Below are positions 3,325-20,131 of a stretch of 20,139 bases of DNA, piece by piece. The notes beneath the pieces are model-generated. The model saw nothing but the letters and a program-made list of their open reading frames with translations. It was not told where the DNA came from and searched no databases. The stretch comes from a virus. Position 1 is the stretch's first letter; each line of letters begins with the position of its first letter. The DNA lies in IMG/VR virus record IMGVR_UViG_3300025128_000464, positions 1 through 20,139 of that record; one strand, given 5' to 3'. The position numbers and the translations under genes are program-made.

Positions 3325-3335
3325 TTATATCTCCC

Positions 3336-4409: not shown

Positions 4410-4415
4410 TTTCAT

Positions 4416-4419
4416 CTCC
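4416..4419 (-). promoter_or_regulatory. Ribosome binding site that fixes the capsid start
   Basis: GGAG six bases before the ATG at 4409. It lies inside the codons of a possible longer reading frame from 4421, so it argues for the shorter protein. Confidence 0.7.
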
Positions 4420-4590
4420 ATTTTTGAAAATAAAACAAATGCACGAATGTGCCATATTTACTCGTCATCGGCTAATAGTTTTTGAGGTTGTATGTCTAAT
4501 AGCTAGTTAAACATAGGCTCACACCATCAGGTAGGCTTCCAAGTGTTTGATTGTGTGTGTGAGTATCTCGCTAAAGGGTCACACTCATAG

Positions 4591-4610
4591 ATATGTATAG
4601 TTATACATAT
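4591..4610. repeat. Perfect AT-rich palindrome overlapping the capsid promoter -10
   Basis: ATATGTATA-GT-TATACATAT: nine-base arms around a two-base centre, with no mismatch. The right half covers the -10 element proposed for the capsid promoter. A dyad at that place is typical of an operator bound by a dimeric regulator, but AT-rich palindromes also arise by chance and could form a weak RNA hairpin. Confidence 0.55.
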
Positions 4611-4627
4611 TTATTCTTTTATGTCAA
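4600..4627 (-). promoter_or_regulatory. Sigma-70-type promoter in front of the capsid gene
   Basis: On the minus strand TTGACA (4627-4622, all six bases of the consensus) is followed after 16 bases by TATAAC (4605-4600, five of six). The site lies just after the scaffold stop codon and about 190 bases before the capsid ATG. It would give the capsid gene its own transcript with a leader of roughly 180 bases. Good -35/-10 pairs can occur by chance in AT-rich DNA, but a six-base perfect -35 in one of the few intergenic gaps is suggestive. Confidence 0.55.
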
Positions 4628-4631
4628 CAAA

Positions 4632-5519
4632 TTATCTAGCTGAACCTGATACGTCATATACAAAGTTGCCAGATCGTATTGCTTCCATTATCATATCTGC
4701 ATTCTTTTCATAAGCAGTAGCAGACATCTTTTGTACATCAGACTCTTTAATCTTCTTTGCACTATCTGCTGTAGGTGTAGATTTTACAGCTTTCGCTTTA
4801 ACTTGCGTAGCAGCACTTTTGCCACTTTCGCTTGTATCCTTCTTGCCGAGTCCTCTATCTGCTTTGTATAGATCGATTGCTCGTGCTGCTGATTTTGCAT
4901 CGTCTTGATTTTCGTATAATGCATTCTGTACCCACTTTGGCTGTTGCTCTGCCCACTCATGAAAGTCATCACTGTCTCTAATCTCATCAAAGTCAGGATG
5001 CAATCGCATAAGTTCAACTTCTGCTCTTTCTTTTACAGTCTCTTCGTTGAACTGATTAATCTCTTTAATTCTTTTTTCCAGTGACTCAGATTGTTCTTTT
5101 GCTTTTTTCATAGCAATAGTTTCTACAATCTTTGCAACATCAGGATATTCTTTTGCCCAAGCCTCTATATCTTCATCAGACTTTGGCAACTTCATTTCTT
5201 TCTGTGTTGCTTTTGATAGCTGAACTTTTAATTCATCAAGTTGCTTTTGGAATTGCTTCTCTTTTTCTTGTGAGTGTCTTCGTAAATCTCCGTAACGCTT
5301 TTTGAAAGTTCTCTCTTCAGCGTTCTTCGGTTCTTCCTCATCCTCTGCTTTCGCTTCTTCAGTAGGTTCGGTTTCACCTTTTTGAGCCTCTATCATCTCT
5401 TTTAGTTCATCTTCATCCTTTTTAATTCTTTCAGCATGATTAGAACGCTTAGTCATGAATGCTTTTTTTTCAGGTGTAGCATCTACCACCATTTCTTCTG
5501 TTTTAGCTTCTTCTGCCAT
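4632..5519 (-). CDS. Capsid scaffolding protein
   Basis: This 295-residue protein is highly charged, dominated by E, K and D, and predicted to be largely coiled coil. Residues 30-110 have long runs of heptad-like charged helix (for example KQFQKQLDELKVQLSKATQK), and 130-190 continue as helix; the C-terminal 60 residues are lysine-rich and end KKIKESDVQKMSATAYEK and a short hydrophobic-polar tail, where scaffolds usually bind the coat protein. Its place immediately before the major capsid gene and its composition are the standard signs of a podoviral scaffold, which fills the procapsid and leaves before packaging. The ATG has AGGAG seven bases upstream. There is no serine protease motif. Confidence 0.82.
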   Translation of the reverse strand: MAEEAKTEEMVVDATPEKKAFMTKRSNHAERIKKDEDELKEMIEAQKGETEPTEEAKAEDEEEPKNAEERTFKKRYGDLRRHSQEKEKQFQKQLDELKVQLSKATQKEMKLPKSDEDIEAWAKEYPDVAKIVETIAMKKAKEQSESLEKRIKEINQFNEETVKERAEVELMRLHPDFDEIRDSDDFHEWAEQQPKWVQNALYENQDDAKSAARAIDLYKADRGLGKKDTSESGKSAATQVKAKAVKSTPTADSAKKIKESDVQKMSATAYEKNADMIMEAIRSGNFVYDVSGSAR

Positions 5520-5580
5520 TTTTTACTCCTAGGGTTATCGTAGCCATCAATCGGGGGATAAGTAGCTAGTATGTGGATAT

Positions 5581-7359: not shown

Positions 7360-7360
7360 A

Positions 7361-9151: not shown

Positions 9152-9362
9152 TCACTTCGTCTCTTAACATTTTTAGTCTCTTCAATGCCATTATATATCC
9201 TTGTGCTCTGTGTATGGATATAACGTCATCTGACTGTTCCATTATTTTATGTTGTTCGTCTATCTTATAATCCAAGTAATCATTGAAGGGGTTGATTAGC
9301 TTGGGGTTGTTCACCAACGTCTTGAGTCGGCTGCGTATCTGCTTGTGGTTGTTGTTGTCCAA
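9141..9362 (-). CDS. Small portal-linked protein, TTG start
   Basis: The protein has 73 residues, is helical and charged, and ends with HRAQGYIMALKRLKMLRDEV, a pattern I associate with small proteins just after portal genes in podoviruses; its function is unknown. The start is TTG, not ATG, and is supported by a very strong AGGAAGG (9376-9370) seven bases upstream. Its first 27 codons lie inside the 3' end of the portal gene in another frame (83-base overlap), where the portal encodes a Q/P-rich tail. Its own last 11 bases overlap the start of the metallopeptidase gene. Such tight nesting on both sides argues that it is a real gene. Confidence 0.72.
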   Translation of the reverse strand: MDNNNHKQIRSRLKTLVNNPKLINPFNDYLDYKIDEQHKIMEQSDDVISIHRAQGYIMALKRLKMLRDEVNAE

Positions 9363-11433
9363 CTTGTGACCTTCCTGTAAATCCTTGCTCTTGAGGTGTA
9401 GGTGCTATACCAGTACCTATCGTGCCACCACCTGAACCTGTAGGATCACTAGGATCTACTCCTGCTGGTGGTTGTGGTTGAGCTTGTTCTTGTTGAGGTG
9501 CTCTAAAGTCTTTCATAAGCTCTGCTTGTAAAGCCGCCTCATCCATATTGTTAGTTACTTTATCAGGGTCTAAATCCATAGCTTTTGCTATTTCACGTAT
9601 TATATACTGAAACTTTGCAAAAGGTGCAAGTGCTGGGTTAGAAGATACTTGTAAGAACTGCATAAGTCTTTGTGATCTTACTTCGTTTGCCATGAGACTT
9701 TCTGTGCCTCTAGCCTTAACTTCTAAATCGCCTTTTATCTTTGGGTCGTAGTCGAACTGCATATTAAATTTAAATAGACCCTCTCCTAATGGTTTTAGAA
9801 GATAGTCATCTACATTCTTTATAACAGTTTTAATACTACCAGCCGCTGCATTCATGAGCATGGATATACCCGAAGCAGTTCTGCCTACTCCAGTTATACC
9901 AGTTTGTCCGTGAGCAAATGATGGCATACCTGTACTCTCATCTGCCAACTGTCTTGCTTTATCAAACAACTGCATGTTCTCTGCAGCAACATTAGGAAAC
10001 TTTGTACCAAACAATGCTTGACCCGGAGCACCACCTTGTCTTCTAAACACTTTTCCCGGATAGACAGATAAGTCTTGACCCGGCACTAAGTTAGTCTCAT
10101 CAACTTCTATGAGTAAGTTACCTGACAGTACAGCATTATCCACTGCCATTCTCATGAAACCATTCATCAATGTTTGTGTGTCATCCATATTCTCAGCTAC
10201 ACCCACACCAAAGAAAGAGTATGGATTTAACTCATATGGTGCTGCCATGTATGGTATTCTAGCAGGTTTAAATGGATTAATTACCATTCTTAATAACTTA
10301 CCATTACATATCCATGCATTTATTTGTATCTCATCTAGAGATTGCATTTCTTTTGGTATCTCAATATCTTGTTCAAGTAGTATGTCTACATCACAATTAC
10401 CCCAATACTCAAGAACTTCATATCTCTCTATTTCGTGCTCAGAAGCATAGTCTGCTAAATCATCTTCCCATGATTTCTTTGTGTAGTTCTCTCCTGCAGC
10501 TATTGCATCTTCTATAACTTGCTCTCTAAAATGTGGTCTCTTTTTTAAAGAACGTATCTGTGATCTTGACATCTTATGTCTTTCAATCACGTATTGTGCA
10601 TCATCCATGTTTGTAGAATCAGGGTCAGGATAAAAGTCCCACACTGATACATGATTAACTTGTGGTACTGTTTTGAATGTAGGATCATATTCGCCATCAT
10701 CGCCCCAATTAGGGTACTCTTTGTCTACAGCAAAAGGTCCTTTCATCACACCAGTACCAAACAAAGCCATCTCAAACGCTGTGCTTCTTAAATGTTTATT
10801 AGCACCTGACTCATCTAGTTGATCCATGATTTTCTTTTCCATACCTTTGGCTGCAATCATGGCTGGACTAAATGTAACTGCTGATGGTGTCTTACCTACT
10901 TCTTCTTTAAGTCCTTCAATATTCTGCAACTTTTCTTGCAAAGGACCAAGCCTCTCTTGTAGGCTTTTTTCAGTTGCTCCTTTAGGAAACTCCATACCAT
11001 CGCCACGGAAACCGTAAGGTGACTCCATGCCCATGTCACGGATCTCTTGAGGTTCTTTCGGATCAAAGCTGACATCTTTCGCTACTCCTTCTGGTAACTC
11101 CGTTGGATCAACACTCAACGGAAACTTATTGTTAGCAAACAGTACGTCTACTATTTGACCATACGCCGCTAACGTCTTAGTCTTAGTAACCTTTATAAAT
11201 ACTCTAGATTTTTCTGCTTCTGTAAATTGTACGTCAGAACCATACAATCCTCTGTAGTTTCTGTATGCTCTTAGCCACCTTTGTTCGTCTTGCTCACGAT
11301 AATCGTCTGCACGATAATACTTATCCATAATGTATGGTATTATATTATTAGGTTTTGCATCTGCTATTGTAGAATCATCTGTGTCTTCTAGTGATACTGA
11401 TTCTAACTCTACAGGAATGTCTTCTTCTGCCAT
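9280..11433 (-). CDS. Portal protein
   Basis: This is the ring at the unique capsid vertex through which DNA is pumped in and leaves. I chose ATG at 11433 (717 residues, MAEEDIPVELES) because it follows the terminase stop as TAATATG and a weak GGA lies nine bases upstream; an in-frame ATG at 11454 would add seven residues and overlap the terminase by 20 bases. Length near 720 matches P22-type portals (about 725). Visible segments include QRWLRAYRNYRGLYG near 48-62, a KVTKTKTLAAYGQIVDVLF wing region, a long FYPDPDSTNMDDAQYVIER segment, a GIVAENM-like patch read as GVGVAENMDDTQTLMNGFM, and a helical core with IKTVIKNVDDYLLKPLGEGL. The C-terminal 80 residues are Q/P/G-rich low complexity and contain the start of the next gene. 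Confidence 0.88.
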   Translation of the reverse strand: MAEEDIPVELESVSLEDTDDSTIADAKPNNIIPYIMDKYYRADDYREQDEQRWLRAYRNYRGLYGSDVQFTEAEKSRVFIKVTKTKTLAAYGQIVDVLFANNKFPLSVDPTELPEGVAKDVSFDPKEPQEIRDMGMESPYGFRGDGMEFPKGATEKSLQERLGPLQEKLQNIEGLKEEVGKTPSAVTFSPAMIAAKGMEKKIMDQLDESGANKHLRSTAFEMALFGTGVMKGPFAVDKEYPNWGDDGEYDPTFKTVPQVNHVSVWDFYPDPDSTNMDDAQYVIERHKMSRSQIRSLKKRPHFREQVIEDAIAAGENYTKKSWEDDLADYASEHEIERYEVLEYWGNCDVDILLEQDIEIPKEMQSLDEIQINAWICNGKLLRMVINPFKPARIPYMAAPYELNPYSFFGVGVAENMDDTQTLMNGFMRMAVDNAVLSGNLLIEVDETNLVPGQDLSVYPGKVFRRQGGAPGQALFGTKFPNVAAENMQLFDKARQLADESTGMPSFAHGQTGITGVGRTASGISMLMNAAAGSIKTVIKNVDDYLLKPLGEGLFKFNMQFDYDPKIKGDLEVKARGTESLMANEVRSQRLMQFLQVSSNPALAPFAKFQYIIREIAKAMDLDPDKVTNNMDEAALQAELMKDFRAPQQEQAQPQPPAGVDPSDPTGSGGGTIGTGIAPTPQEQGFTGRSQVGQQQPQADTQPTQDVGEQPQANQPLQ

Positions 11434-11434
11434 A

Positions 11435-12988
11435 TTAATATCCAAATGTTGCATCAGCTATAGGCATACCTTGTGATGGTCTACCCATAGGATCATAATC
11501 AAATATGCTAAATCTAGGTCTAGTCATTACACCATATCTTAACGCATCATAGATATGATCTTCTGCTCTTGTATCCACATCTTCTGGATTCTTCTTATCC
11601 AACGGAATAGCAGGTATTTGTGAGACTGTATTTGTACATGTATTAAAAAACACTAATCTAGGCTCTTCTGTCATCTCATCTATTTGTAATCTTCTATGTA
11701 TCTCATTCTTTCCTGATACACGACTACCTCTACTTCTGTCTGACGGTCTCCATCTGCATCCTCTTTGTATCATCTGCTCTGCTAGTGAAGGTCCTGTATC
11801 TCCACGTTTATGCCAAAGAGAGCTATCTAATACTCCGTATTTAATGTTACCGTCTTCTGCTTCTAACTCATTTATCATATCTGCCAAATCTGTGGCAAGG
11901 ACTTTACTAACGTACAACTCTCTATATACAATAAGTTGCTCACTTGGAGAAACAGCAAACCACAACACAGCACTATAAGAGCCATAACCGTAGTCACAAG
12001 CACGAAACTTAACCCAATTTCGTGGAACATCAAAAGGTTCAATAACGTGATTATCCCTACTAAACTCAGTAAAAGCAGCACCTTCTTTAATATCCCAATC
12101 ACCTTCAAGCAACTGCTTTCGTTGGTGTTCAGGTAAGGAAAGAAGCATCGCTTCGTAATCGCCTTGACTTGACAGATATGGGTTATCAGATAATCTAGCA
12201 GGTATGAATCTTCTTTTAAATAATGCTTGACCTGCTTTATTATGTCCTTCAGGGTATTTAAGGACTTTCCCTGTGTCAATGTTTGTGGCATCGAATGATC
12301 TTCCATAAGGTGCTGGGTCAATAAACATCTTCTTAACCCACTGATGTCCCGGACCTCCGGGGTTCGTTGTTGCTCTCATATACACTGGTAAATCAGGAGC
12401 AGTAGAACGTAATCGTGACCTCATGTAGTTCCAAGCAAACGGTGTTGCCCATTGTGTTAATTCATCAAAGCCTATCCAACTAAAAGCTAAACCTTGATAT
12501 CTTAGTACATCATCATCTCGGTCTAGGTATGACATCCATAGTCTTGCACCCGAAGGTGCTACCCATTGCATCTTTCTTTCCGACCATTTTATCCCTTTGT
12601 ATATAAGAGGATATAATTCTCTTGACTTCCAAACTAGTTCTCTTAGCTCTTCTGTCGTATGTCTTAACAGCAGACCACTAAACTGTGGATGACTCATATA
12701 TCTTAATGGATCTGCCAACATAGCATATGACTTACCACCACCTGCTGAACCACCATACAATACTTCTCTTTCAGGTGATGCCAAGAACTCTGTTTGAGGA
12801 CCTTCATTAGGTTGGAAGACTACATTCTGTTCCTCTACAGGTACTTCCTCAACAGGCTCTATGTCAATGCTTTTATGCTCTTGCTCCGACTCTACCTTCT
12901 TCGATCTCTTTCGCCTTTTGGATTGCTTTCTGGGCATACTCGGACCATTTTCTAAGAGTTCTAGCTTTGTTCTTACGATGTCGCTCAT
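11435..12988 (-). CDS. terL: Terminase large subunit (ATPase and nuclease)
   Basis: All the key motifs are present in order in this 517-residue protein. The ATPase Walker A is GGSAGGGKS at 79-87, Walker B is WIGFDEL at 171-177 with D175 and E176, and a coupling-type ATTNPGG is at 206-212. The RNase H-like nuclease has D332 in CDYGYG, D388 in GVLDSS and D477/D481 in AEDHIYDALRYG, the expected three acidic sites. It cuts and pumps the concatemeric DNA into the procapsid through the portal, which is the next gene. The start is uncertain: the ATG at 12988 gives a basic N-terminus and a 116-base overlap with the upstream gene, while ATG at 12937 (MPRKQSKRRKR) would shorten the overlap to 65 bases. 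Neither has a strong ribosome site. Confidence 0.96.
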   Translation of the reverse strand: MSDIVRTKLELLENGPSMPRKQSKRRKRSKKVESEQEHKSIDIEPVEEVPVEEQNVVFQPNEGPQTEFLASPEREVLYGGSAGGGKSYAMLADPLRYMSHPQFSGLLLRHTTEELRELVWKSRELYPLIYKGIKWSERKMQWVAPSGARLWMSYLDRDDDVLRYQGLAFSWIGFDELTQWATPFAWNYMRSRLRSTAPDLPVYMRATTNPGGPGHQWVKKMFIDPAPYGRSFDATNIDTGKVLKYPEGHNKAGQALFKRRFIPARLSDNPYLSSQGDYEAMLLSLPEHQRKQLLEGDWDIKEGAAFTEFSRDNHVIEPFDVPRNWVKFRACDYGYGSYSAVLWFAVSPSEQLIVYRELYVSKVLATDLADMINELEAEDGNIKYGVLDSSLWHKRGDTGPSLAEQMIQRGCRWRPSDRSRGSRVSGKNEIHRRLQIDEMTEEPRLVFFNTCTNTVSQIPAIPLDKKNPEDVDTRAEDHIYDALRYGVMTRPRFSIFDYDPMGRPSQGMPIADATFGY

Positions 12989-13274
12989 GTATCAATCTTT
13001 TTCTTAATCCTGTATGAGATATATCTCTGCCTGTTTTATTTGTAAGCCAATTTGCAACTTGTCTATAGGAATATTGATTTACGTATTTCCTAGCTAACTC
13101 TATTGCCTCTAGCTCGTAAGGTATTGGATCAAGTAACTCAGAATCCTCTTCATTTATTTTATAGCCAAATGGTATCGTTCTAGCTATGCGTGGTATCTGT
13201 ATCCACTCTTTTTGTTCTTCGTCTTTTAAATCTGTTGGTTGTGGTAACTTCCACTTTCCTAAACTTCTGTCCAT
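12873..13274 (-). CDS. Helix-turn-helix DNA-binding protein between TerS and TerL
   Basis: The 133-residue protein has a basic helix-turn-helix near 55-100: ELEAIELARKYVNQYSYRQV, then NWLTNKTGRDISHTGLRKRL, where helix, turn and recognition helix are easy to see. The style matches resolvase/recombinase-type HTH domains and proteins placed just before terL in marine phages. The N-terminal 45 residues contain KEWIQIPRIARTIPFGYKI. It could recognise the packaging site together with, or instead of, the upstream TerS candidate; that is inference. The start overlaps the stop of the preceding gene (TAATG). The last 116 bases overlap terL in another frame, and both frames encode K/R-rich peptide there. 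Confidence 0.75.
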   Translation of the reverse strand: MDRSLGKWKLPQPTDLKDEEQKEWIQIPRIARTIPFGYKINEEDSELLDPIPYELEAIELARKYVNQYSYRQVANWLTNKTGRDISHTGLRKRLIHERHRKNKARTLRKWSEYAQKAIQKAKEIEEGRVGARA

Positions 13275-13513
13275 TATTTCTTTTTTAGATTATTTACAAT
13301 AGTAACAGGATTAGCGTATTTTTTAGTTGCTAGACCCCCTACATTATAACCCATATAATTTTTTATAATTTCTATTATTTCAGGTTTAGTTATACTTTTT
13401 ATATCGTCATCACTCTCTATCGCACCTGTATCTAAAGCAAATGACCTTAATTTTTTTAAACTTGCTTTTTTATAGCCTTTTTTAAACTCTTCTTCTGTAT
13501 CAAATGTGCCCAT
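13274..13513 (-). CDS. Small hypothetical protein in the packaging cluster
   Basis: I do not recognise a function. The 79-residue product has an N-terminal helical part (EEFKKGYKKASLKKLRSFAL), a KSITKPEIIEIIKNYMG helix that resembles SAP/LEM-like small helical modules only loosely, and a C-terminus GGLATKKYANPVTIVNNLKK. The GGLA element recurs at the end of the 592-residue virion protein. Its start is supported by AGGGGA seven bases upstream, and it is coupled to the HTH gene by TAATG and separated from the TerS candidate by nine bases. Coupling to packaging genes suggests co-expression rather than a shared role. Confidence 0.72.
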   Translation of the reverse strand: MGTFDTEEEFKKGYKKASLKKLRSFALDTGAIESDDDIKSITKPEIIEIIKNYMGYNVGGLATKKYANPVTIVNNLKKK

Positions 13514-13522
13514 TATTTTCCC

Positions 13523-13888
13523 CTAACCATTGTCTTTTTTTGGTGGTAGTATCATGACACCACCCGATGCCTCTACTTGCACTTTCTCAGTTTTAATTAA
13601 TCCAACTCTATCTAATAATTCTTTTGACGCAGATAGTCTATCTCTTATTCCTAGCTGTGTAGGGTCATCTACACCACTTACCATAGCCACAGCAGCCTTT
13701 GGTGCGTTTCTAGCCATATATAATTCTGTAGCTTCCATTATCTCTTTTCTTAGCGAGTTCACAATGTCTGACGTTGATGAGTTCTCTGAATAACCTGCAA
13801 GTATTTTAGCTTGTACTATATCTCCACCTGCTCCGTCAAACAGAACTTGCAAAAATGTTTTTTGTCTTTCTGTTAGTTCTCTGCTCAA
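13523..13888 (-). CDS. terS: Terminase small subunit candidate
   Basis: The 121-residue protein starts MSRELTERQKTFLQVLF and has the TerS-like N-terminal HTH: DIVQAKILAGYSENSSTSD. The middle is helical (KEIMEATELYMARNAPKAAV), and the end IRDRLSASKELLDRVGLIKT followed by EKVQVEASGGVMILPPKK is the usual arrangement of small terminases, in which a C-terminal strand follows an oligomerisation helix. It would bind the packaging initiation site and present DNA to the large subunit. The ATG overlaps the lysozyme stop by four bases (ATGA), and the large terminase lies three genes on. Because another DNA-binding protein sits directly next to terL, the TerS assignment is a strong but not exclusive guess. 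Confidence 0.72.
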   Translation of the reverse strand: MSRELTERQKTFLQVLFDGAGGDIVQAKILAGYSENSSTSDIVNSLRKEIMEATELYMARNAPKAAVAMVSGVDDPTQLGIRDRLSASKELLDRVGLIKTEKVQVEASGGVMILPPKKDNG

Positions 13889-14340
13889 TGTGGTATCCCC
13901 TGTGTTAAAACTCTGTCTATTAGACGTTGTGCTCTGTTTGGAGTTTGTCTAAACCAACGTGAGTCTTCCATTTGATTTGCCATTTCTTGATAGTCTTCAT
14001 TGTGCACAGCAGCAATCATGTTCTTAAATTTACTTAGAGTTGGTCTCCCTAATTGGAAAGACATATTTGCCAACACTCTTTGTATCTCTTCAGGCAAAGA
14101 ATCAAAATTATTGAATATCTGTTTACAGTCATTTATAGAAACACTTATATCTCTTTCAAACCAATCATTAACTTGTTCGTTTGGTACAGGATATCCTATA
14201 GGTTTACCATAATAATCTGTGTCCCACTCTGTAATTAAATGCCCGATGCCCCCGGTCAAATGCCCTTCTGAACATAAATACAACTCGTATTTTATCCCCT
14301 CGTCATCGGCTATTTCATCTTGGAGTTTCATTAAATTCAT
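13885..14340 (-). CDS. T4-type lysozyme (endolysin) with E-C-T triad
   Basis: At 151 residues it is close to T4 gene e (164). The catalytic arrangement E-8-[D/C]-5-T is present: E14 in DDEG, C23 where T4 has D20, and T29, within ELYLCSEGHLTGGIGHL. The GIGH motif follows the threonine as expected. The downstream helices include FDSLPEEIQRVLANMSFQLG and SRWFRQTPNRAQRLIDRVL, the latter matching the conserved T(P)NRA end of the family. It cleaves the NAG-NAM bond of peptidoglycan. There is no signal peptide, so it needs the holin gene encoded just upstream. The ATG overlaps the stop of the 41-residue gene (ATGA). Confidence 0.92.
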   Translation of the reverse strand: MNLMKLQDEIADDEGIKYELYLCSEGHLTGGIGHLITEWDTDYYGKPIGYPVPNEQVNDWFERDISVSINDCKQIFNNFDSLPEEIQRVLANMSFQLGRPTLSKFKNMIAAVHNEDYQEMANQMEDSRWFRQTPNRAQRLIDRVLTQGIPH

Positions 14341-14462
14341 TTTCTAATACCTAGTTCTAGTTGTTGTTTACGTATTTCATTAACATGTTTGTGCCAAAAG
14401 TAATTACCAATTTTACATATGAAAGAAGATAATTTTAAATATATTTGTGCTTTACGTGTCAT
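14337..14462 (-). CDS. 41-residue conserved-looking protein in the lysis cassette
   Basis: A short frame begins ATG at 14462, overlapping the holin stop (ATGA), and ends TGA overlapping the lysozyme start (ATGA). It reads MTRKAQIYLKLSSFICKIGN then a YFWHKHVNEIRKQQLELGI-type helix. Four-base couplings on both sides strongly support it as a real gene despite its size. I recall similar tiny proteins near lysis genes in marine phages but know no function. A longer frame upstream in the same phase runs through the holin gene and has no support. It could be an antiholin-like partner or a small membrane-surface peptide; sequence does not decide. Confidence 0.75.
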   Translation of the reverse strand: MTRKAQIYLKLSSFICKIGNYFWHKHVNEIRKQQLELGIRK

Positions 14463-14851
14463 TTTCTCTTTAACATCTTTGCTGCTTGACCTACACCCTT
14501 TATACCAAAAGATGCAGAGATTGCAATATATAATAAATATTGATACCAATCAGGAAGTGTCGCTAGAATCTCAAATCCATCTTTTACGTACTCTCTCATA
14601 CCCGGAATGAAAACTAGTATTGCTGGAGCTAATAAAACTACTAATGCAAACTCGTCTTTCCAAGAATCCACTGTTGCATCTGCCATCTTACCTTCCCATG
14701 CAACTTCACCTGCTGCAACCTTCTCTGCAACAGTAGCACGAGCTTTTGCCTCTGCAACTTTAGCGAGTCCGTCTGCTTTTGTCTTTTCGACTTTGTTTTG
14801 AAACCATGTTCCTGCGAGATTTGCTATTGGTCCTATTAATGCTTGTATCAT
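14459..14851 (-). CDS. Holin, 3-TM GTA/phage type
   Basis: The 130-residue protein has a soluble, helical and charged N-terminal half (20-65, rich in A, K and E), then hydrophobic segments near 68-83 (FALVVLLAPAILVFIPG) and 101-117 (DWYQYLLYIAISASFGIKG), and a short basic tail (KMLKRK). The W-x-DEFALV junction and this shape match the 3-TM holins associated with gene-transfer-agent release; the first weak membrane-facing segment may be the N-terminal 1-16. It would make pores that let the lysozyme reach the wall. It is followed by the 41-residue gene and the lysozyme gene, both coupled by ATGA. No strong ribosome site is visible at the start. Confidence 0.86.
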   Translation of the reverse strand: MIQALIGPIANLAGTWFQNKVEKTKADGLAKVAEAKARATVAEKVAAGEVAWEGKMADATVDSWKDEFALVVLLAPAILVFIPGMREYVKDGFEILATLPDWYQYLLYIAISASFGIKGVGQAAKMLKRK

Positions 14852-14898
14852 TTGCTAACTTTTCTTTTATCTTCTCTTGCTTTAATTTTTCTTTTAAT

Positions 14899-15159
14899 TT
14901 AGCTGTATTTACGAAATCTTGATGTTTTTTTTGCAACCTTGCGGGGTTGTTTAGAAAATTGTTTACCTTTTCTAGTCGCTTTGCGTTTAGCAGCCGAAGA
15001 GGCGGCGTATTCAGAGGCAGATAAAGCCTTAATCGCTTTTTCAGGTAAATAACGCTCACCCGTTGCCTTTGACCCTTGTGTACTAGGTTTACCTGATTTG
15101 GTTCTCCACTTTTGTTTCCCCCACGCAACTAATGACCTCTGTGATTTTTTAAGTGCCAT
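14899..15159 (-). CDS. Basic protein with KWRTKSG / GERYLP motif (marine-phage family)
   Basis: Starting at ATG 15159 gives 86 residues: MALKKSQRSLVAWGKQKW, RTKSGKPSTQG, TGERYLPEKAIKALSASEY and a GKQFSKQPRKVAKKTSRF end. I chose this ATG because a longer in-frame start at 15177 would overlap the preceding microprotein, while 15159 follows its stop by eight bases with AGAG upstream. The sequence is one I know from many marine phages, often directly joined to the WSARKAQ module; here that module is in a separate gene at 16383-16691. Charge is very high (K/R over 30%), and no membrane part or enzyme motif is seen. DNA or RNA binding is a reasonable but unproven guess. Confidence 0.82.
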   Translation of the reverse strand: MALKKSQRSLVAWGKQKWRTKSGKPSTQGSKATGERYLPEKAIKALSASEYAASSAAKRKATRKGKQFSKQPRKVAKKTSRFRKYS

Positions 15160-15167
15160 ATTAGACT

Positions 15168-15284
15168 CTACATACATAAATCTTCATACTTAGTTGTATG
15201 AAGTCTGTGCCTTGCTAATTCTCTAGCAGAACTTATGCCAATTCTACTGTTATGTCTTAGAATGTTTATCAACCAATTTATCAT
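15168..15284 (-). CDS. 38-residue microprotein
   Basis: This frame from ATG 15284 to TAG 15168 overlaps the end of the DUF1289-like gene and stops eight bases before the next gene. It reads MINWLINILRHNSRIG, SARELARHRLHTTKYEDL and CM, an amphipathic N-terminus followed by a basic helix with RHRLHTTKYE. I recall related short proteins with the same HTTKYE ending from marine phages, so I treat it as real, but I know no function. A purine-rich AGAAG lies near the start. Confidence 0.62.
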   Translation of the reverse strand: MINWLINILRHNSRIGISSARELARHRLHTTKYEDLCM

Positions 15285-15384
15285 ATGCTTCTTTTATTTC
15301 CTCTATAGTTCTTTTACATCCTACACAAATATCGTTTTCAAGTCTACAGACACCTATACAAGGTGTTAAAATTTTCCTGTCCAT
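15250..15384 (-). CDS. DUF1289-like microprotein (four-cysteine)
   Basis: The frame starts at ATG 15384, inside the end of the one-TM gene, and gives 44 residues. After MDRKILT it has PCIGVCRLENDICVGCKRT, which is the C-x3-C-x6-C-x2-C pattern with the GC(K/R)RT end of the DUF1289 family of small bacterial proteins, followed by a helix IEEIKEAYDKLVDKH. The cysteines (C9, C13, C20, C23) could hold a metal. DUF1289 proteins are common in proteobacteria and some phages; their function is not known to me. No strong ribosome site is visible, so expression may rely on coupling to the preceding gene. Confidence 0.72.
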   Translation of the reverse strand: MDRKILTPCIGVCRLENDICVGCKRTIEEIKEAYDKLVDKHSKT

Positions 15385-15809
15385 TTACCAGCAAACCACG
15401 CTAACACCCCTGCAAAGAATAATATTATTATAAATCCTATTCCGTATCCTGCATACTCTATAAGTTCTTGCCTACGCTTTTCTGCCATCTTTTCTTGATA
15501 GCGTCTAGACTTTCTAGCTTCTGCTTGGAATGCCTGCCAATCTTGCCAAAGTCCCGGTCTGCCTAGATAAATCATCATCTTCTTGAGTTCTTCTTCTTTC
15601 TCTCGTATTTGTTCAAGAGCCATGAACTCATCTAAGTCTGCACCACCAACACCCCTAGCTTTTTTCTTTTTTAGGTTTTTCTCTATCTCTTCTTTTGAAA
15701 ATACAAAATCGCTTATATGTTTAGCACACCCACTTAGTTCTTTTCCGTTGGACACGAACTGTTTTATGACACTGAAAGCAGCATTAGCTGCGGCTAGTTC
15801 TGCTAACAT
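15366..15809 (-). CDS. One-TM virion or lysis-associated protein
   Basis: The product has 147 residues: an A-rich N-terminal helix (MLAELAAANAAFSVIKQFV), a SDFVFSKEEIEKNLKKKK stretch, a glycine hinge (RGVGGADLDEF), a long charged helix from 58 to 115 with MMIYLGRPGLWQDWQAFQAE, and a C-terminal membrane segment at about 119-141 (IGFIIILFFAGVLAWFAG). I know this family from marine phages, always without a function. The long charged helix plus one membrane segment near holin and lysozyme genes makes a spanin-like or lysis-regulator role possible, but spanins normally have the membrane part at the N-terminus, so this is only a guess. It starts one base after the stop of the upstream gene. Confidence 0.76.
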   Translation of the reverse strand: MLAELAAANAAFSVIKQFVSNGKELSGCAKHISDFVFSKEEIEKNLKKKKARGVGGADLDEFMALEQIREKEEELKKMMIYLGRPGLWQDWQAFQAEARKSRRYQEKMAEKRRQELIEYAGYGIGFIIILFFAGVLAWFAGKWTGKF

Positions 15810-15810
15810 T

Positions 15811-15993
15811 TTACCTTTTCCTTATGGGTTTACAATATGCAGTTATACGTAAAGTAGGTCCTTCCTCTTGTGGTATGGGTGGCTGTCTATGCAGTCTCTC
15901 TGCGAAATATAAACATCTATCTAAATCTTGGAAGGTTTGTGTTTGGTCTATTACTCTTACTCCCATCATAAACACAAGCACAAACTCAATCAT
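15811..15993 (-). CDS. 60-residue small protein, hydrophobic N-terminus
   Basis: The reading frame begins MIEFVLVFMMGVRVIDQTQT and continues with DLDRCLYFAERLHRQPPIP, a G-T-L-R-I-TAYC part and a basic end KPIRKR. The first 13 residues are hydrophobic and may be a weak signal or membrane anchor. The two cysteines in CLYFAERLH and TAYCKP are spaced like those of related small marine-phage proteins that I recall. The AGGAG seven bases before the ATG is strong and lies inside the coding region of the eight-cysteine peptide, whose stop overlaps this ATG (ATGA). Function is unknown. Confidence 0.76.
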   Translation of the reverse strand: MIEFVLVFMMGVRVIDQTQTFQDLDRCLYFAERLHRQPPIPQEEGPTLRITAYCKPIRKR

Positions 15994-16106
15994 ACTGGTG
16001 CTCCTAACACCTCTTCTTCTTGTTCTTTGTGGCAGTCACAGTTGCATTCCTCACAATCGCAATCATAACATTCACAAGTATCACACCTTTTTCTTTTTTC
16101 GTTCAT
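15990..16106 (-). CDS. 38-residue peptide with eight cysteines (metallothionein-like composition)
   Basis: Frame from ATG 16106 to TGA 15990; the stop overlaps the next start (ATGA) and the first 26 bases overlap the end of the gene before it. After MNEKRKR come eight cysteines at positions 8, 11, 13, 16, 18, 21, 23 and 25, in a C-x2-C-x-C repeat with D and E between them, then a HKEQEEEVLGAPV tail. This alternation of C with acidic residues is like a metal-binding peptide. I do not recognise the family. The ATGA link to the 60-residue gene and the fact that the C-terminal codons carry that gene's ribosome site support it as translated. No clear ribosome site is seen for its own start. Confidence 0.6.
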   Translation of the reverse strand: MNEKRKRCDTCECYDCDCEECNCDCHKEQEEEVLGAPV

Positions 16107-16383
16107 GTGCTTTTTTTAAACTTTCTTTGGCTCTTTTAAAGATATTTACAACTTCAGTCTTGCCCATTACTTTAGCTCTTTGCTCACCGACTGTAAGTAT
16201 CTGTATCTTTCTCGCATATGGCTTATTGATCTTTTTAACTTTTGTAACTGTGTTTCGTGCATCTGTTGGGGTGGCGAACTTGATGCTAACTGTGTCTTTA
16301 GGATTTTCATCTGTGTATAAACGTCTGCCTGAACCTTTGGGTTTTTTACCTGTTCCAACTTTAGGATCTTTCTTTTTAGCCAT
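16081..16383 (-). CDS. Basic conserved marine-phage protein (KKDPKxGTGKKPKGSGRRLYTDE family)
   Basis: The 100-residue protein begins MAKKKDPKVGTGKKPKGSG, then RRLYTDENPKDTVSIKFATP, a KINKPYARKIQILTVGEQRA part and a C-terminal helix ending in a run of lysines. The N-terminal 40 residues are a pattern I know from many T7-like and other marine phages, where it marks a small protein of unknown role. The K/R content is about one third. Its start overlaps the stop of the upstream gene (TAATG). A nucleic-acid-binding role is likely from charge alone and nothing more specific can be said. Confidence 0.8.
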   Translation of the reverse strand: MAKKKDPKVGTGKKPKGSGRRLYTDENPKDTVSIKFATPTDARNTVTKVKKINKPYARKIQILTVGEQRAKVMGKTEVVNIFKRAKESLKKAHERKKKKV

Positions 16384-16691
16384 TAGTTTCTGTAGCCACC
16401 ACCAGCAGCTTTATAGGCTTTAGCCATCATTTGTGCTTTACGTGCAGACCATTGCCCCGGAGCACCACCTTTGCCCCCTGCTTTAATTCTATTAAAGATA
16501 CGTTTTCTCATTTCAGGTTTAGTATAATTACCTGCTTTGTTAACTGTGCTTTTAGACTTCTTCTTTTTTGCAGAACCACCTTTTCTCAATTCTATAGCTG
16601 AAAGAGCTTTTGCTTGACCTGCGTGAGCTTTACTAGCCTTCTTTAATTTTCCTGCTACTTTTTTGATTGTTGCTTTTGCTTTTACTGTCAT
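16383..16691 (-). CDS. Basic protein with GGxPGQWSARKAQ module (DUF5872-like)
   Basis: This 102-residue protein has a lysine/alanine-rich first half (1-50, with ELRKGGSAKKKK) and a conserved C-terminal module at about 55-102: NYTKPEMRKRIFNRIKAGGK, GGAPGQWSARKAQMMAKAYK and AAGGGYRN. I recall this module under the name DUF5872 in phages and algal viruses and often next to the KWRTKSG module that here is encoded alone at 14899-15159. The GQWSARKAQ core with glycine ends suggests a compact helical fold. Role unknown; charge favours contact with nucleic acid. It overlaps the next gene by TAATG. Confidence 0.78.
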   Translation of the reverse strand: MTVKAKATIKKVAGKLKKASKAHAGQAKALSAIELRKGGSAKKKKSKSTVNKAGNYTKPEMRKRIFNRIKAGGKGGAPGQWSARKAQMMAKAYKAAGGGYRN

Positions 16692-16694
16692 TTT

Positions 16695-16973
16695 TTATGC
16701 CATTGGGTTTACTTTTTTAGCCTTACGGGTTCGTCTAAAAGATCTGTTCTTCGATGCAGATTTAGTTGTCAAGTTTGATAATCTATTATCTTTAGGATTA
16801 CCATTCTTGTGTGCTACATCTTTCCCCTTTACATTTACCCCCTTCTTTTTCAGAAGATTACGAGCAGCATTTCTGCTGTCTCGCTTTTTAATTTGTTCAG
16901 GCTTACCATGATAATTCTGATACTCCTTTTTATAATTTCTTTTTGTTTTTCTTTTTCTTGTTGTTTGTGTCAT
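16695..16973 (-). CDS. HNH-endonuclease-like small basic protein
   Basis: The protein has 92 residues: a basic N-terminus (TRKRKTKRNYKKEYQN), KPEQIKKRDSRNAARNLLKK, and at 51-68 KDVAHKNGNPKDNRLSNL, which carries the H...GN..DNR..NL signature of the HNH fold used by homing endonucleases. A typical DHxDGN start is changed to AHKNGN, so the first metal-binding position is altered and activity is uncertain. I know related proteins as widespread in marine phages, usually called hypothetical. It may bind DNA and nick it, or have lost catalysis and serve as a DNA-binding protein. Its start lies inside the upstream gene by 44 bases, in a region where that gene encodes a lysine-rich tail. Confidence 0.75.
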   Translation of the reverse strand: MTQTTRKRKTKRNYKKEYQNYHGKPEQIKKRDSRNAARNLLKKKGVNVKGKDVAHKNGNPKDNRLSNLTTKSASKNRSFRRTRKAKKVNPMA

Positions 16974-17622
16974 CGTATAAATTATTAAAAGTTGTAAAAG
17001 GATCTAAATAAGACTCATGTGCCTCTGCTGAATGTAGCCACTGCGATGGTGCAAAATCAGGAGCACCTTCTCCAGTAACCCATAGTGCTGGACTTGTTGC
17101 TCTAACTCTGTTGTTAGGTAAAGCTACTAAGTTACCAGTCCATTTACCAGCATCTAATAAATACAATACGTGTGATTGCTTATGTTGTGCTGGATCGTCA
17201 GCTATATCACTTTCTGTGTAGTCGACAGTAAATAAATACTTTGCAGTAAAAAATTTATTGTCTATTTTGCATAGCCACGGAGAAGAACTAACTCTATCCA
17301 TAACTATAACTGAATGATGCCTAGCTTCGCAGTCCCACGGTTGACATAGATGATCTTCCATTGGTTCTGCCCATTCGTCTACTGGTATGTCTGCTACGAG
17401 TGCTTGTATAGGCATTCTTGCCCACATTGCACCACCATGAACATTTTCTTTTTCATCGCATCCCGTGAACACAACTTGGAAACTTAGTGACCTATCAGGT
17501 ATTGTGTTAACTGCGAAAGCTAAAGCGTGAAGGAACTCACCATGATACTTAGAGTGATTGCAAGTGAATTCTTTACGTACCCAACACTTAAAATGTGGTA
17601 CGTTACTGATTAGGTAAGACAT
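16930..17622 (-). CDS. Highly conserved marine-phage protein of unknown function (SYLISNxPHFKCWVRKEFT)
   Basis: I recognise this 230-residue protein from many marine phages, always without a function. Its conserved body includes YLISNVPHFKCWVRKEFT at 3-20, KYHGEFLHALAFAV, FQVVFTGCDEKENVHGGAMW, HLCQPWDCEARHHSV, PWLCKIDNKFFTAKYLFTVD, SDIADDPAQHKQSHVLYLLD and APDFAPSQWLH. It has an unusually even mix of aromatic, Cys and His residues with several C and H sites that could bind metal (C13, C21, H22, C93, C98). The last 15 residues are a lysine/asparagine tail. The start overlaps the preceding stop (TAATG). A structural or enzymatic role is open. It is unusually large and well conserved for this block of tiny genes. 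Confidence 0.86.
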   Translation of the reverse strand: MSYLISNVPHFKCWVRKEFTCNHSKYHGEFLHALAFAVNTIPDRSLSFQVVFTGCDEKENVHGGAMWARMPIQALVADIPVDEWAEPMEDHLCQPWDCEARHHSVIVMDRVSSSPWLCKIDNKFFTAKYLFTVDYTESDIADDPAQHKQSHVLYLLDAGKWTGNLVALPNNRVRATSPALWVTGEGAPDFAPSQWLHSAEAHESYLDPFTTFNNLYDDTNNKKKKNKKKL

Positions 17623-17918
17623 TATCTACGTCTTGCCGCACCACCCCTTGACATCATTTTAGACTTTTTCTTCATACCTGCCCCACCCTTAGACATGTAC
17701 TTTGTCTTCTTCATGCCACCTTTGGACATGTATTTAGTTTTCTTTTTCATAGTCACACCACCTTTTGCTTTTCCTATTTTTCTAACAGCTTCATCAGCCT
17801 TCTTAGCTTCCATACCACCCTTAGTTAAAGCATTAAATTCTTTCATACTAAGATTGGGATAAAAGTCTTTTATTAAGGCTCTAAGCTCAGTTAAAGTTAT
17901 ATCAGATTTTTTTGCCAT
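17622..17918 (-). CDS. Lysine-rich protein with KYMSKGG tandem repeats
   Basis: The protein has 98 residues. The first half is a helical domain (ITLTELRALIKDFYPNLSMK and EFNALTKGGMEAKK), and the second half is three tandem units built on K-K-(T/S)-K-(Y/M)-M-S-(K/R)-G-G, at about 57-92. The GKAKGG before the repeats is shared with the 592-residue virion protein, whose N-terminal helix also begins near a YP-S-L motif. The repeats are recent-looking at the amino-acid level and could be a flexible, positively charged spacer or nucleic-acid binder. The gene starts nine bases after the upstream stop with AAGG near the ATG. Function unknown. Confidence 0.76.
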   Translation of the reverse strand: MAKKSDITLTELRALIKDFYPNLSMKEFNALTKGGMEAKKADEAVRKIGKAKGGVTMKKKTKYMSKGGMKKTKYMSKGGAGMKKKSKMMSRGGAARRR

Positions 17919-17927
17919 TTGCCTTAC

Positions 17928-18590
17928 CTATTTCTTTCTAGCTTTAGCCATTGTTACTATTCTATCTTTCATAGCTTTCATTTTGGCTTTTTTCTTCTCA
18001 TCATCTATCTCTTTTAATCTAGCAGACATAGATATTCTACCCCCAGATTTAGATGGGGTAGTTTTTATCGAACTAGTTCTCTTAGACATTATAGGACTAG
18101 CAGATTTCTTTTTCATAAACTTTTGTATAGCAGCTCTTGTACGAGCACCCATTATGCCATCAGCTTTTATTTTTGCTCCCATAGCTATTAATTTCTTCTG
18201 CAAAGCTAAAGTTTTGTTATAGTCTTTTGTATTGGCTGCTGTTGCCCTAACTTTCTTTGTGCCTATGTTAGCATCTTTCTTCATAATGTTAGCAACTTTA
18301 ATTAAGTTAGGCTTCATTTTAGGAAGAGCTTTTAATTCACTTTTTATGGTGTTTTGTGCCTTTTTTAAATTACTAGCAACAGATGCATTGGCTAGTAGTT
18401 TAGCATCCACCTTTTGAATTATATTTTTACTAAGACTTTTAGGCAGTTTAGTTTTATTTAGTTGTGTTTTTAAATTATTAACTATGGCTTTGTTTTTATC
18501 TCTAACATTCTTAGACTTTTCTATTTTCATTTTAACAAGTTGTATTAACTCTTTGTCATCTACACCTGTTAAGTCTAGCTTATTAGCCAT
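17928..18590 (-). CDS. Lysine-rich protein with a peptidoglycan-binding-like repeat
   Basis: The product has 220 residues. Residues 1-115 are helical and lysine-rich. At 127-160 TLALQKKLIAMGAKIKADGI followed by MGARTRAAIQKFM matches the PG_binding_1 pattern (LQ..L...G....DG..G..T..A+..F). The C-terminal 60 residues are basic and unstructured. PG_binding_1 domains attach enzymes to the wall; here no enzyme is fused, so the protein could be a wall-contacting virion protein or a lysis helper. It follows the upstream gene as TAATATG with GGAG six bases before the ATG, a good site. The match is short, so a chance resemblance within a lysine-rich helix is possible. Confidence 0.68.
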   Translation of the reverse strand: MANKLDLTGVDDKELIQLVKMKIEKSKNVRDKNKAIVNNLKTQLNKTKLPKSLSKNIIQKVDAKLLANASVASNLKKAQNTIKSELKALPKMKPNLIKVANIMKKDANIGTKKVRATAANTKDYNKTLALQKKLIAMGAKIKADGIMGARTRAAIQKFMKKKSASPIMSKRTSSIKTTPSKSGGRISMSARLKEIDDEKKKAKMKAMKDRIVTMAKARKK

Positions 18591-18591
18591 A

Positions 18592-18885
18592 TTATTCTCC
18601 CTTTACTGTTTTGCCTTTAGTAATTTTGGCAAATGCTTCAGGACTTGAATTACGTAGTGCTTTCAATCCCGGATTTAGTGTAACAGATCCTCCAGCAACA
18701 TAAAAGTGTTTTTTGCCCATTGCTGTTCCACCATATGCCATCTTAGATTTTTGCATTTTTTCCATTTTTGTATCCTCTATTTTACTTTTTAAAGATGTTT
18801 GAATCACTTCTTTAGCTTTTTCCACTATACCCTTACTATGTTTTTCAGAATCATCTAATATTTTACGTGCTTCTACCAATGTCAT
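18592..18885 (-). CDS. Small protein with GGSVTLNPGLKALRNSSPEAF motif
   Basis: The protein begins MTLVEARKILDDSEKHSKG from ATG 18885 (97 residues). An in-frame ATG at 18897 exists, but the GGAG it contains sits six bases before 18885, and 18885 overlaps the DUF6321-like stop by one base (TAATG), so I take the shorter form. The first 50 residues are helical and charged, then KMAYGGTAMGKKHFYVAGG and VTLNPGLKALRNSSPEAFAK form a conserved block that I recall from marine phages. Function unknown. The GG-T/S elements link it to other GG-rich proteins in this window. Confidence 0.74.
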   Translation of the reverse strand: MTLVEARKILDDSEKHSKGIVEKAKEVIQTSLKSKIEDTKMEKMQKSKMAYGGTAMGKKHFYVAGGSVTLNPGLKALRNSSPEAFAKITKGKTVKGE

Positions 18886-19178
18886 TAACATCTCCATCGT
18901 CTTCTAGCTTGTCTTAATCTACTATTTGGATTTTTTGCTGCTTTAGGGAACTTTTTCATCTGTCCTGCTGATCTAGCACAGAAAGATTTACGTCTTGCAG
19001 CTCTTTTGCCTGTTGGTTTCTTCTCTGTTACTGCTGTTTTAAGTTTACTGCCCGGATTTTGCCTACGATACTTGGCTACACCCTTTGCAGTCATGCCTGC
19101 TCCACTCTTTGTGGATCGCATATCACCACTTTTTTGGGTAAAACCTTTTAATCCACCTTTTTTACGCTTTTCTGCCAT
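18885..19178 (-). CDS. DUF6321-like basic protein (KSFCARSAG / WRC end)
   Basis: The 97-residue product has the signs of the DUF6321 family as I know it from marine phages: KSGAGMTAKGVAKYRRQNPG at 24-43, KKPTGKRAARRKSFCARSAG at 53-72 and a RLRQARRRWRC end. C67 and C97 are conserved places in the family, and the RKSFCARS core is the strongest mark. It is extremely basic. Its first 31 bases overlap the end of the 81-residue gene in a different frame. A role in binding DNA or RNA is plausible from composition; no experiment is known to me. The ribosome site is weak. Confidence 0.84.
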   Translation of the reverse strand: MAEKRKKGGLKGFTQKSGDMRSTKSGAGMTAKGVAKYRRQNPGSKLKTAVTEKKPTGKRAARRKSFCARSAGQMKKFPKAAKNPNSRLRQARRRWRC

Positions 19179-19393
19179 AGTATTTTCATCTTACCTTCAG
19201 GTATATCATCTGATTTGACGCATTTATACTTAACAGCTTCGTAGTTAGGCATCCAATCTGGTAGATCAACTGCTATTTCGTAAGCTCTGACCTCGCATTC
19301 CTTCTTTGTTGCGTATGGTCCTTGTATATCAGATAGCGTATGGCAGATATTTGTGTTGCCAATCAAACACACGAGTACAAATGTCTCAAACAT
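19148..19393 (-). CDS. Small cysteine-containing protein, hydrophobic N-terminus
   Basis: The 81-residue protein starts MFETFVLVCLIGNTNICHTL, which could be a short signal or anchor, and continues YATKKECEVRAYEIAVDLPD, NYEAVKYKCV and a charged end. Cysteines at 9, 17, 33 and 58 are placed as in a group of small marine-phage proteins that I recall having the same CxxRxYEIA and YKC parts. Disulphides in the periplasm would fit if the N-terminus exports it. It is coupled to the 69-residue gene by TAATG. Function unknown. Confidence 0.74.
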   Translation of the reverse strand: MFETFVLVCLIGNTNICHTLSDIQGPYATKKECEVRAYEIAVDLPDWMPNYEAVKYKCVKSDDIPEGKMKILWQKSVKKVD

Positions 19394-19602
19394 TACCCCT
19401 TATCTTTCCAACCTTCAGCTTTCATGGCACGTTCAACATGCTTCAAACTAAATGATTTATTAAAATGAGCATCTACTGCTGCTTTCACGTAGTAGACATC
19501 ACTATGGGGGATATGGATTTTATGTAGTTTATTATTACGGACAGCACGATAGAAACTTTCTAGCGTACTACCTGCATATAGTTTTACGGATTTTTTCCTC
19601 AT
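19393..19602 (-). CDS. First gene of the late block, small DNA/RNA-binding-like protein
   Basis: I chose ATG 19602 (69 residues, MRKKSVKLYAGSTLESFYR) because the in-frame alternative at 19608 is a TTG without a ribosome site. No Shine-Dalgarno is visible for either, and a TATAAC lies eight to twelve bases upstream, so a leaderless message is possible. The body has NNKLHKIHIPHSDVYYVKAA followed by a helix (HFNKSFSLKHVERAMKAEGW). It is basic and shows an alternation of strand and helix but no family that I recognise with certainty; I recall similar first genes in marine phage late blocks. It is followed by the 81-residue gene with TAATG. Confidence 0.72.
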   Translation of the reverse strand: MRKKSVKLYAGSTLESFYRAVRNNKLHKIHIPHSDVYYVKAAVDAHFNKSFSLKHVERAMKAEGWKDKG

Positions 19603-19648
19603 TGTCAAGTTATATGTATATTTACGTGGGAGGCTTATAAGATTTACT

Positions 19649-19698
19649 ACATTGTAAATGTTATTATATTATAACTGTATATAACATTGTAAATGTTA
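19649..19698. repeat. Pair of dyad repeats, TAACATTGTAAATGTTA type
   Basis: ACATTGTAAATGTTA occurs twice, at 19649-19663 and 19684-19698, 35 bases apart. The second lies in a perfect dyad TAACATT-GTA-AATGTTA (19682-19698); the first has one mismatch in the left arm. Spacing near three to three and a half helical turns fits operators for a dimeric regulator, and TATAAT elements (19663-19673, minus strand) lie between them. Confidence 0.65.
19663..19693 (-). promoter_or_regulatory. Possible sigma-70-type promoter for the late block
   Basis: On the minus strand TTTACA (19693-19688, five of six) is followed by two overlapping TATAAT elements (19673-19668 and 19668-19663). Spacers are 14 and 19 bases, both off the ideal 17, so this is weak. 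The -35 lies inside one of the dyads, which would suit repression. Confidence 0.35.
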
Positions 19699-19944
19699 AC
19701 ATTATAATTGTAACTAGTTTTATCATATTTTTATTTAAAAGTCAAATACAGTAGAAGTGTTGTGCCCCGCCCTTTAAAATACATTACTTATGTATAACAT
19801 ATTAACAGTTATCATTGTGGTTTACACCTAAAATACCTAATCTGTGTATATGTACATGATACATACGTGGGTACGGGGGTGTGGCAGTCGCATGGCACGG
19901 CAAAAAATGATAGAAATTTATTGGATTGCGTCAAAAATTGTAAA

Positions 19945-19963
19945 TTTTACCAACTTGGTAAAA
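19945..19963. repeat. Perfect palindrome TTTTACCAA-C-TTGGTAAAA
   Basis: Nine-base arms around one base. As RNA the best hairpin is TTTTACC-AACTT-GGTAAAA with a five-base loop. It lacks a U tract in either direction, so a protein-binding dyad is more likely than a terminator. The TTGG half resembles the start of the nearby 17-base motifs. Confidence 0.5.
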
Positions 19964-20000: not shown

Positions 20001-20021
20001 AAACTGTTATCGTATCAGTTT
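20001..20021. repeat. Dyad AAACTG-N9-CAGTTT
   Basis: Six-base perfect arms with a nine-base centre, a common spacing for helix-turn-helix regulator sites. It lies 13 bases before the first TTGGCA motif. Confidence 0.4.
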
Positions 20022-20033: not shown

Positions 20034-20050
20034 TTGGCATAAACCTTGCA
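20034..20050 (+). promoter_or_regulatory. Sigma-54-like motif A (rightward)
   Basis: TTGGCATAAACCTTGCA: TGGCA(C/T), five bases, TTGC, the -24/-12 spacing of sigma-54 promoters. Only the C of TGGCAC is changed to T. It shares its flanks (AAAA before, T after) with motif C exactly 81 bases on. Confidence 0.45.
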
Positions 20051-20052
20051 TT

Positions 20053-20069
20053 AGCAAAATCTGTGCCAA
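20053..20069 (-). promoter_or_regulatory. Sigma-54-like motif B (leftward, toward late genes)
   Basis: On the minus strand TTGGCACAGATTTTGCT fits TGGCAC-N5-TTGC without a mismatch. If it is a promoter, transcription would begin near 20043 and cross about 440 bases of leader before the first late gene. It faces motif A head to head two bases away. Confidence 0.45.
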
Positions 20070-20114
20070 CTTGAAAAGTAGGAGCATATAATTATTTTTA
20101 CATGATTTTAAAAG

Positions 20115-20131
20115 TTGGCACGATTCTTGCA
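20115..20131 (+). promoter_or_regulatory. Sigma-54-like motif C (rightward, out of the window)
   Basis: TTGGCACGATTCTTGCA is a full match to the sigma-54 consensus TGGCACG-N4-TTGC(A/T). It points out of the window on the right, which suggests a gene or operon on the plus strand beyond the edge. Confidence 0.5.

Follow-up and report, generated by a model that had tools for sequence, protein, structure and literature searches.

Genes and motifs at the right end of the window

The sequence analysed, called the window throughout, is a 20139-bp IMG/VR record of an uncultured marine phage, classed as a virus and possibly a fragment. Every main gene lies on the minus strand, within a structural, packaging and lysis module whose leftward operon begins with a 71-aa ORF (Table 1). 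Between 19609 and the right end of the window no ORF reaches 60 aa. Over 89% of the query, the terminase shares 84-85% identity with those of CRP-1 and CRP-345 (Roseobacter) and of Puniceispirillum phage HMO-2011. Homologous terminase, portal and coat genes, together with the structural gene order, satisfy the criteria for an HMO-2011-type phage, and the window phage is of this type. In CRP-1, CRP-345 and HMO-2011 the structural module runs leftward and the early genes (primase, helicase, polymerase) run rightward. Because the related genomes show this layout, we place the three sites described below (A, B and C) in the divergent junction between early and structural genes. The record stops 9 bp beyond site C, therefore the right side of the junction was read from relatives. 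The main paper on HMO-2011-type phages makes no mention of promoters or sigma factors (PMC9038755).

The initial annotation had reported three sigma-54-type motifs near the right end, two rightward and one leftward, two of them exact, and direct reading confirmed all of this. All three sites fall in the last 106 bases of the window; B and C match TGGCAC-N5-TTGC exactly and A differs from it by one change (C to T). The criterion for a sigma-54 promoter, GG (-24) and GC (-12) at a fixed spacing of 10 bp, is satisfied by the three sites. Transcription from sigma-54 promoters starts 12 nt past the C of the -12 element, and the starts in Table 1 were inferred by this rule, without transcript data. 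The predicted start of B is 434 nt ahead of the 71-aa ORF.

Regarding the specificity of the motifs, B and C are the only 2 exact matches to TGGCACN5TTGC in the record, the reversed pattern used as a control gave 0, and allowing one mismatch adds only A. With up to two mismatches there were 27 matches in the window against 14.4 expected (maximum 22 among 100 shuffles). We also built a scoring matrix from 29 ChIP-verified sigma-54 sites of Salmonella (S. Typhimurium; PMC3844500), which themselves score between 16.6 and 23.3 bits with a median of 19.6. The top three sites of the window on this matrix were C (22.2 bits), B (20.6) and A (19.8), and the fourth and fifth were isolated (18.1 at 15223 and 16.2 at 18142); the best score of shuffled windows (n=30) had a mean of 12.3 and a maximum of 21.8. 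Sites A, B and C score like genuine sigma-54 sites. They resemble the bacterial sigma-54 promoters of glnA, pspA and rpoH (PMC3844500) in the 16-bp element, the GG-N10-GC pattern, the preferences at free positions and the score range. Nevertheless, they differ from them in being clustered, in including a facing pair and in having no activator gene or shared enhancer that we could find.

Two further features were observed in the leftward leader. The leftward operon has three ACATTGTAAATGTTA-like palindromes in its leader, possible operators, and two of these lie a short way upstream of the 71-aa ORF. The predicted leader of B also contains a noncoding stretch, GTGGGTACGGGGGTGTGGCAGTCGCATGGCA, which is strongly conserved in most of the clade; Rfam gave no match anywhere in the window, this stretch included.

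Table 1. Coordinates of the features of the window (starts are predicted)
Feature	Position	Strand	Remarks
Structural, packaging and lysis module	249-19393	-	terminase, portal, coat, lysozyme, others
71-aa ORF	19393-19608	-	starts with TTG; opens the leftward operon downstream of B
ACATTGTAAATGTTA-like palindromes	19648-19666, 19683-19701, 19934-19952		possible operators
Noncoding stretch GTGGGTACGGGGGTGTGGCAGTCGCATGGCA	~19866-19898		inside the predicted B leader
Palindrome TTTTACCAACTTGGTAAAA	19945-19963		candidate operator of a phage-encoded regulator
Inverted repeat AACTG-TTATCGTAT-CAGTT	20002-20020		just upstream of A; candidate site of a regulator or bending protein
Facing pair A and B, TTGGCAY-N5-TTGC-N4-GCAA-N5-RTGCCAA	20034-20069		36 bp; gap of exactly 4 bp
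Site A, -24/-12 element TTGGCATAAACCTTGC	20034-20049	+	toward the early side; start ~20061
Site B, -24/-12 element TTGGCACAGATTTTGC	20054-20069	-	toward the structural side; start ~20042
Site C, -24/-12 element TTGGCACGATTCTTGC	20115-20130	+	rightward; start ~20142, just beyond the window

Conservation and position of the sites in relatives

In 12 aligned members of the clade the -24 and -12 columns of A, B and C vary by 2-3% per column, whereas the spacers of A and B vary by 23-25%, the stretch separating B from C by 24% and the left flank by 19%. The spacer of C is likewise conserved (4%). Indels of 7-10 bp displace the sites among these relatives but leave the -24 and -12 letters intact. 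The initial annotation had set in advance that the sigma-54 reading would be refuted if the GG/GC doublets and their spacing were not conserved in related phages, and the reading passed this test, given that both are kept in the 12 relatives, in contrast to the spacers of A and B and to the flanks, which drift. As judged from the alignment, this pattern is the footprint of a bound element.

The same pattern bears on the suspicion that the motifs are an artefact of chance or low complexity, or that a hairpin (terminator) has been mistaken for paired promoters. The arrangement of A and B is actually an inverted repeat, and the single match to the pair in bacterial genomes is a perfect hairpin. 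However, the spacers of A and B are complementary at only 2 of 5 positions, there is no terminator-like site, and among 153 pairs most spacers have 0 to 2 complementary positions out of 5. Furthermore, conservation and counts far exceed the controls. The artefact or hairpin reading is refuted by the conservation pattern and we give it practically no credit.

The subclade bearing the sites comprises L004, L005, L007, L010, L026, L131, L143, L164, L170, L180, L202, L203 and L208; L007 is cut at its end and only the pair is visible there. The cluster is absent from the cultured relatives tested (HMO-2011, nine CRP phages and HTVC033P), from eight long uncultured relatives, and from the Vibrio and other relatives tested. 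As the nearest cultured relatives (HMO-2011, CRP) have none, a junction of the HMO-2011 type can work without sigma-54 sites. The window phage has the divergent layout and the junction inverted repeat in common with HMO-2011 and the CRP phages, and these cultured members lack its sigma-54 cluster. The repeat itself, AACTG-N9-CAGTT, lies also at ~13765-13785 of L083, and it is present even in HMO-2011, which has no sigma-54 sites.

What lies to the right of the window, where the initial annotation had advised looking for a plus-strand gene, could be seen in the relatives, and early genes do follow the rightward sites there. In five longer relatives all the sites except B aim at the early genes, five of them rightward and B alone leftward. 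The extra single sites of these relatives lie 42-71 nt ahead of early start codons and are aimed at them, the start codons being mostly 42-46 nt past TTGC. At the gene-near sites TTGC is followed by a palindrome, a purine-rich ribosome-binding site and the start codon, in this order, and at most of them the palindrome is 10-28 nt from TTGC. The criterion that promoters should be upstream of genes, point to them and be at promoter distance is satisfied in the window clade. Order and distances match those expected of a sigma-54 promoter with its start around 12 nt past the -12 C, although transcription itself is inferred. Early genes of one relative (L010), at 382-1626, 3895-4698 and 4708-5091 (-), code for a C5 cytosine methylase and for homologues of mycobacteriophage L5 gp82 and of GP88.

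The sites, their conservation, geometry, position and distribution in the clade can be read directly from the DNA, and at this level there is little doubt that A, B and C are real, conserved and sigma-54-like. Promoter function in the window clade is likely.

The facing pair and its distribution in viruses

The spacing between A and B is identical in all the relatives of the clade, and their predicted starts are divergent and 19 bp apart. In E. coli and Salmonella, the divergent starts of bidirectional promoters are 7-25 bp from each other, 18 being the commonest distance, and polymerase uses their pseudo-symmetric core in both orientations, one binding event excluding the other (PMC12825309, PMC10268837). 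The pair in the window would be close to the bidirectional promoters of Warman and Grainger in the distance between starts, mostly 18 bp there and a predicted 19 bp here. However, the symmetry of their type resides in the sigma-70 -10 element, whereas the window pair consists of two whole -24/-12 elements. A text search found no mention of sigma-54 in either paper (PMC12825309, PMC10268837). The A/B pair can be likened to a bidirectional promoter that uses another sigma factor, and it is not a member of the -10-symmetric class. We propose it as the sigma-54 version of such a promoter; with start sites that are only predicted, its bidirectional use is plausible. RNA polymerases are probably not bound at A and B at the same time.

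The exact 36-bp pair was found in at least 119 viral contigs. It is equivalent to about 21 fully specified bases, and we estimate that fewer than 0.1 occurrences would be expected by chance in the collection. Among 84,980 bacterial and archaeal genomes (257 Gb) there was one match, the perfect hairpin mentioned above; it is located between convergent genes, and for these reasons it gives no host. The facing pair has thus no true match among the genomes scanned. In a mixed-gap scan of the contigs listed, 4 bp was the commonest facing gap, with 32 pairs against at most 10 at any other, and counted by lineage it made up 35 of the 70 counts of the face-to-face 3-8 class. Around 10 of the 119 contigs listed (L088, L089, L099, L140, L146, L189, L190, L192, L200 and L203), as well as the window, end less than 100 bp from the pair. 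This was counted by eye and is seemingly above expectation; assembly may have broken at variable or repeated sequence, or the genomes may end there.

Loci with at least two sites fall into around 94 groups by shared proteins (related arrangements included), and phage genes, that of terminase among them, are found in the main groups. In 51 whole records, 30 of which had been selected for bearing the pair, we counted about 200 matches to the site pattern against 1 for the reversed control. The free positions of 969 unique clustered sites show R after TGGCAY in 96%, R again at the next position in 77% and W after TTGC in 89%. The spacer from TTGGCAY to TTGC is 5 in 1032 clustered sites, and any other length occurs in at most 28. 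The sigma-54 reading of the initial annotation is supported by these free positions (R, R and W) and the single spacer length, together with the match to verified sites and the position before early genes. Recurrent families of neighbouring genes are transcribed away from the pair without exception (39/39, 38/38 and 22/22).

In other lineages the sites are arranged in ways that are more difficult to understand. Tandem arrays of sigma-54-like sites were found with units of ~52 bp (L129:5836-6038), 26 bp (L163:12100-12273) and 54 bp (L184:10300-10443), and tandem arrays of sites or of facing pairs with periods of ~52-54 or 26 bp occur also in L124, L134, L181 and L185. The gaps between back-to-back sites fall into classes of 3-8, 13-19 and 24-29, with lineage counts of 26, 20 and 18 respectively, against 0 at 9-12 and 1 at 20-23. 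These classes are around 10.5 bp apart (p<=5e-5 against uniform gaps), as though neighbouring sites kept a helical phase, and this unexplained phasing suggests organised or simultaneous occupancy. Both the phasing and the tandem arrays count against simple independent promoters, because such promoters predict neither. Furthermore, unpaired sites between codirectional genes of other lineages point along the genes in 50 cases and against them in 60; this lack of preference also counts against simple promoters, although the ORF calls are crude.

The arrays, the classes of back-to-back gaps and the missing orientation preference in the mixed lineages would be better understood if the sites were iterated operator or origin boxes of a phage DNA-binding protein with sigma-54-like specificity, the junction then being a control or replication-origin locus. 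This was the alternative raised in the initial annotation. Nevertheless, an asymmetric site stays constant over around 94 lineages, whereas the palindromic operators of the window clade vary by genome (see below), the likeness to verified sigma-54 sites extends to the free positions, and no common phage protein would explain the sites. We regard such boxes as unlikely overall. In the window clade they lose ground to the sigma-54 reading, given the single directional sites close before start codons and the non-complementary 5-bp spacers, and they are not excluded for the lineages with tandem arrays.

Binding factor, regulation and implications

Regarding the factor that binds the sites and its partners, three possibilities were tried and rejected. 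First, the search for a gene of an enhancer-binding protein, advised in the initial annotation, came out empty: neither PF00158 nor PF04552 was present in the 33 records examined, which include fragments and come from relatives or from similarly equipped phages, and a six-frame search of the loci collected showed no RpoN-box-like motif, so that no phage-encoded sigma-54 or activator was found. Second, no universal phage DNA-binding protein was found, as only hallmark genes (terminase, polymerase, portal) recur and no family is common to all the lineages examined. Third, no enhancer palindrome near the pairs is shared between lineages. With one consensus everywhere, no phage sigma-54 or activator domain and no common protein family, a host factor, sigma-54, is favoured. 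The host is not known and the presence of rpoN in it is assumed.

Sigma-54 closed complexes are stable without an activator. It is conceivable, then, that host sigma-54 holoenzyme remains on the sites as silent closed complexes, acting as roadblocks or as a sink, while transcription comes from nearby sigma-70 promoters. Besides this stability, the empty searches for an activator gene and a shared enhancer motif would agree with silent binding, and so would the frequency of TTGACA, around 3 times higher near arrays than elsewhere, and a sigma-70-like promoter (TTGACT...TATAAT) downstream of the L184 array. However, a handful of sites makes a poor sink, the order of site, palindrome, ribosome-binding site and start codon in the window clade resembles that of productive promoters, and at the window junction sigma-70 matches are only partial (9 or 10 of 12 letters). 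Silent binding seems to us very unlikely.

We prefer the reading in which the host sigma-54 (RpoN) RNA polymerase uses A, B and C as promoters where the structural (left) and early (right) genes diverge. A and C, with two or three more sites just past the end of the window, would fire rightward into the early genes, and B leftward into the structural operon. As A and B overlap with a gap of 4 bp, one polymerase at a time would bind in either orientation, and the transcripts would diverge from the predicted starts. A host AAA+ activator would open the promoters, and it would have to come from the host because the phage seems to have no gene for sigma-54 or for an activator. In relatives, TGTCA-N6-TGACA dyads lie to the right of C, approximately -91 to -146 from B; they are almost restricted to the window clade and are only candidates for enhancer sites.

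A phage-encoded regulator acting on TTACCAASTTGGTAA-type palindromes near the early starts would probably modulate these promoters. The 15-17-bp core of the palindrome at 19945-19963 recurs just downstream of the early sigma-54 sites of relatives, and there are up to eight copies of the TTACCAASTTGGTAA type per genome across the early region of site-bearing relatives (L482, L483, L484, L462 and L143). No copy of it turned up in relatives that have no sigma-54 sites, and in contrast to the window clade it is missing from HMO-2011 and CRP-1. The palindrome is uniform within a genome and differs between genomes, being TTACCAAGTTGTTAA in one and TTAACCAAGTTGGTTAA in another, and such concerted change is expected of a phage-encoded regulator and its operators. 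Thus, these palindromes are likely to be operators of an unidentified phage-encoded regulator, although the regulatory role is inferred. Taken as a whole, the explanation by host sigma-54 promoters is in our opinion probable, with binding, transcription, starts, host activator and the role of the palindromes all deduced from the sequences.

In the full-text literature searched, which was open-access only, clusters of sigma-54 promoters in phages are not described, although absence is not proof. A sigma-54-like factor has been proposed in Pectobacterium phage Q19 from a weak HHpred match (94% probability, E 0.67; PMC7693777); that link is through a protein, whereas the window phage has the DNA sites and no such protein. 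The sigma-54 regulon has also been mapped in a Salmonella strain that carries prophages (PMC3844500).

More tentatively, and with more doubt than conviction, we suggest that many unrelated, mostly uncultured phages may have converged on a virus-specific sigma-54 bidirectional promoter, a facing -24/-12 pair with a peak gap of 4 bp, often in helically phased arrays, which would make the early/structural split depend on host RpoN together with its nitrogen or stress activators. If this is true, a large number of phages, marine and other, rely on an alternative sigma factor that is unable to start transcription without an ATP-driven activator, and infection would be gated by the nitrogen or stress signalling of the host and limited to hosts bearing rpoN. 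The bidirectional promoters would also gain a sigma-54 counterpart, its layout being virus-specific and present in dozens of lineages, and the pair would offer a sequence handle for predicting the host physiology of uncultured phages.
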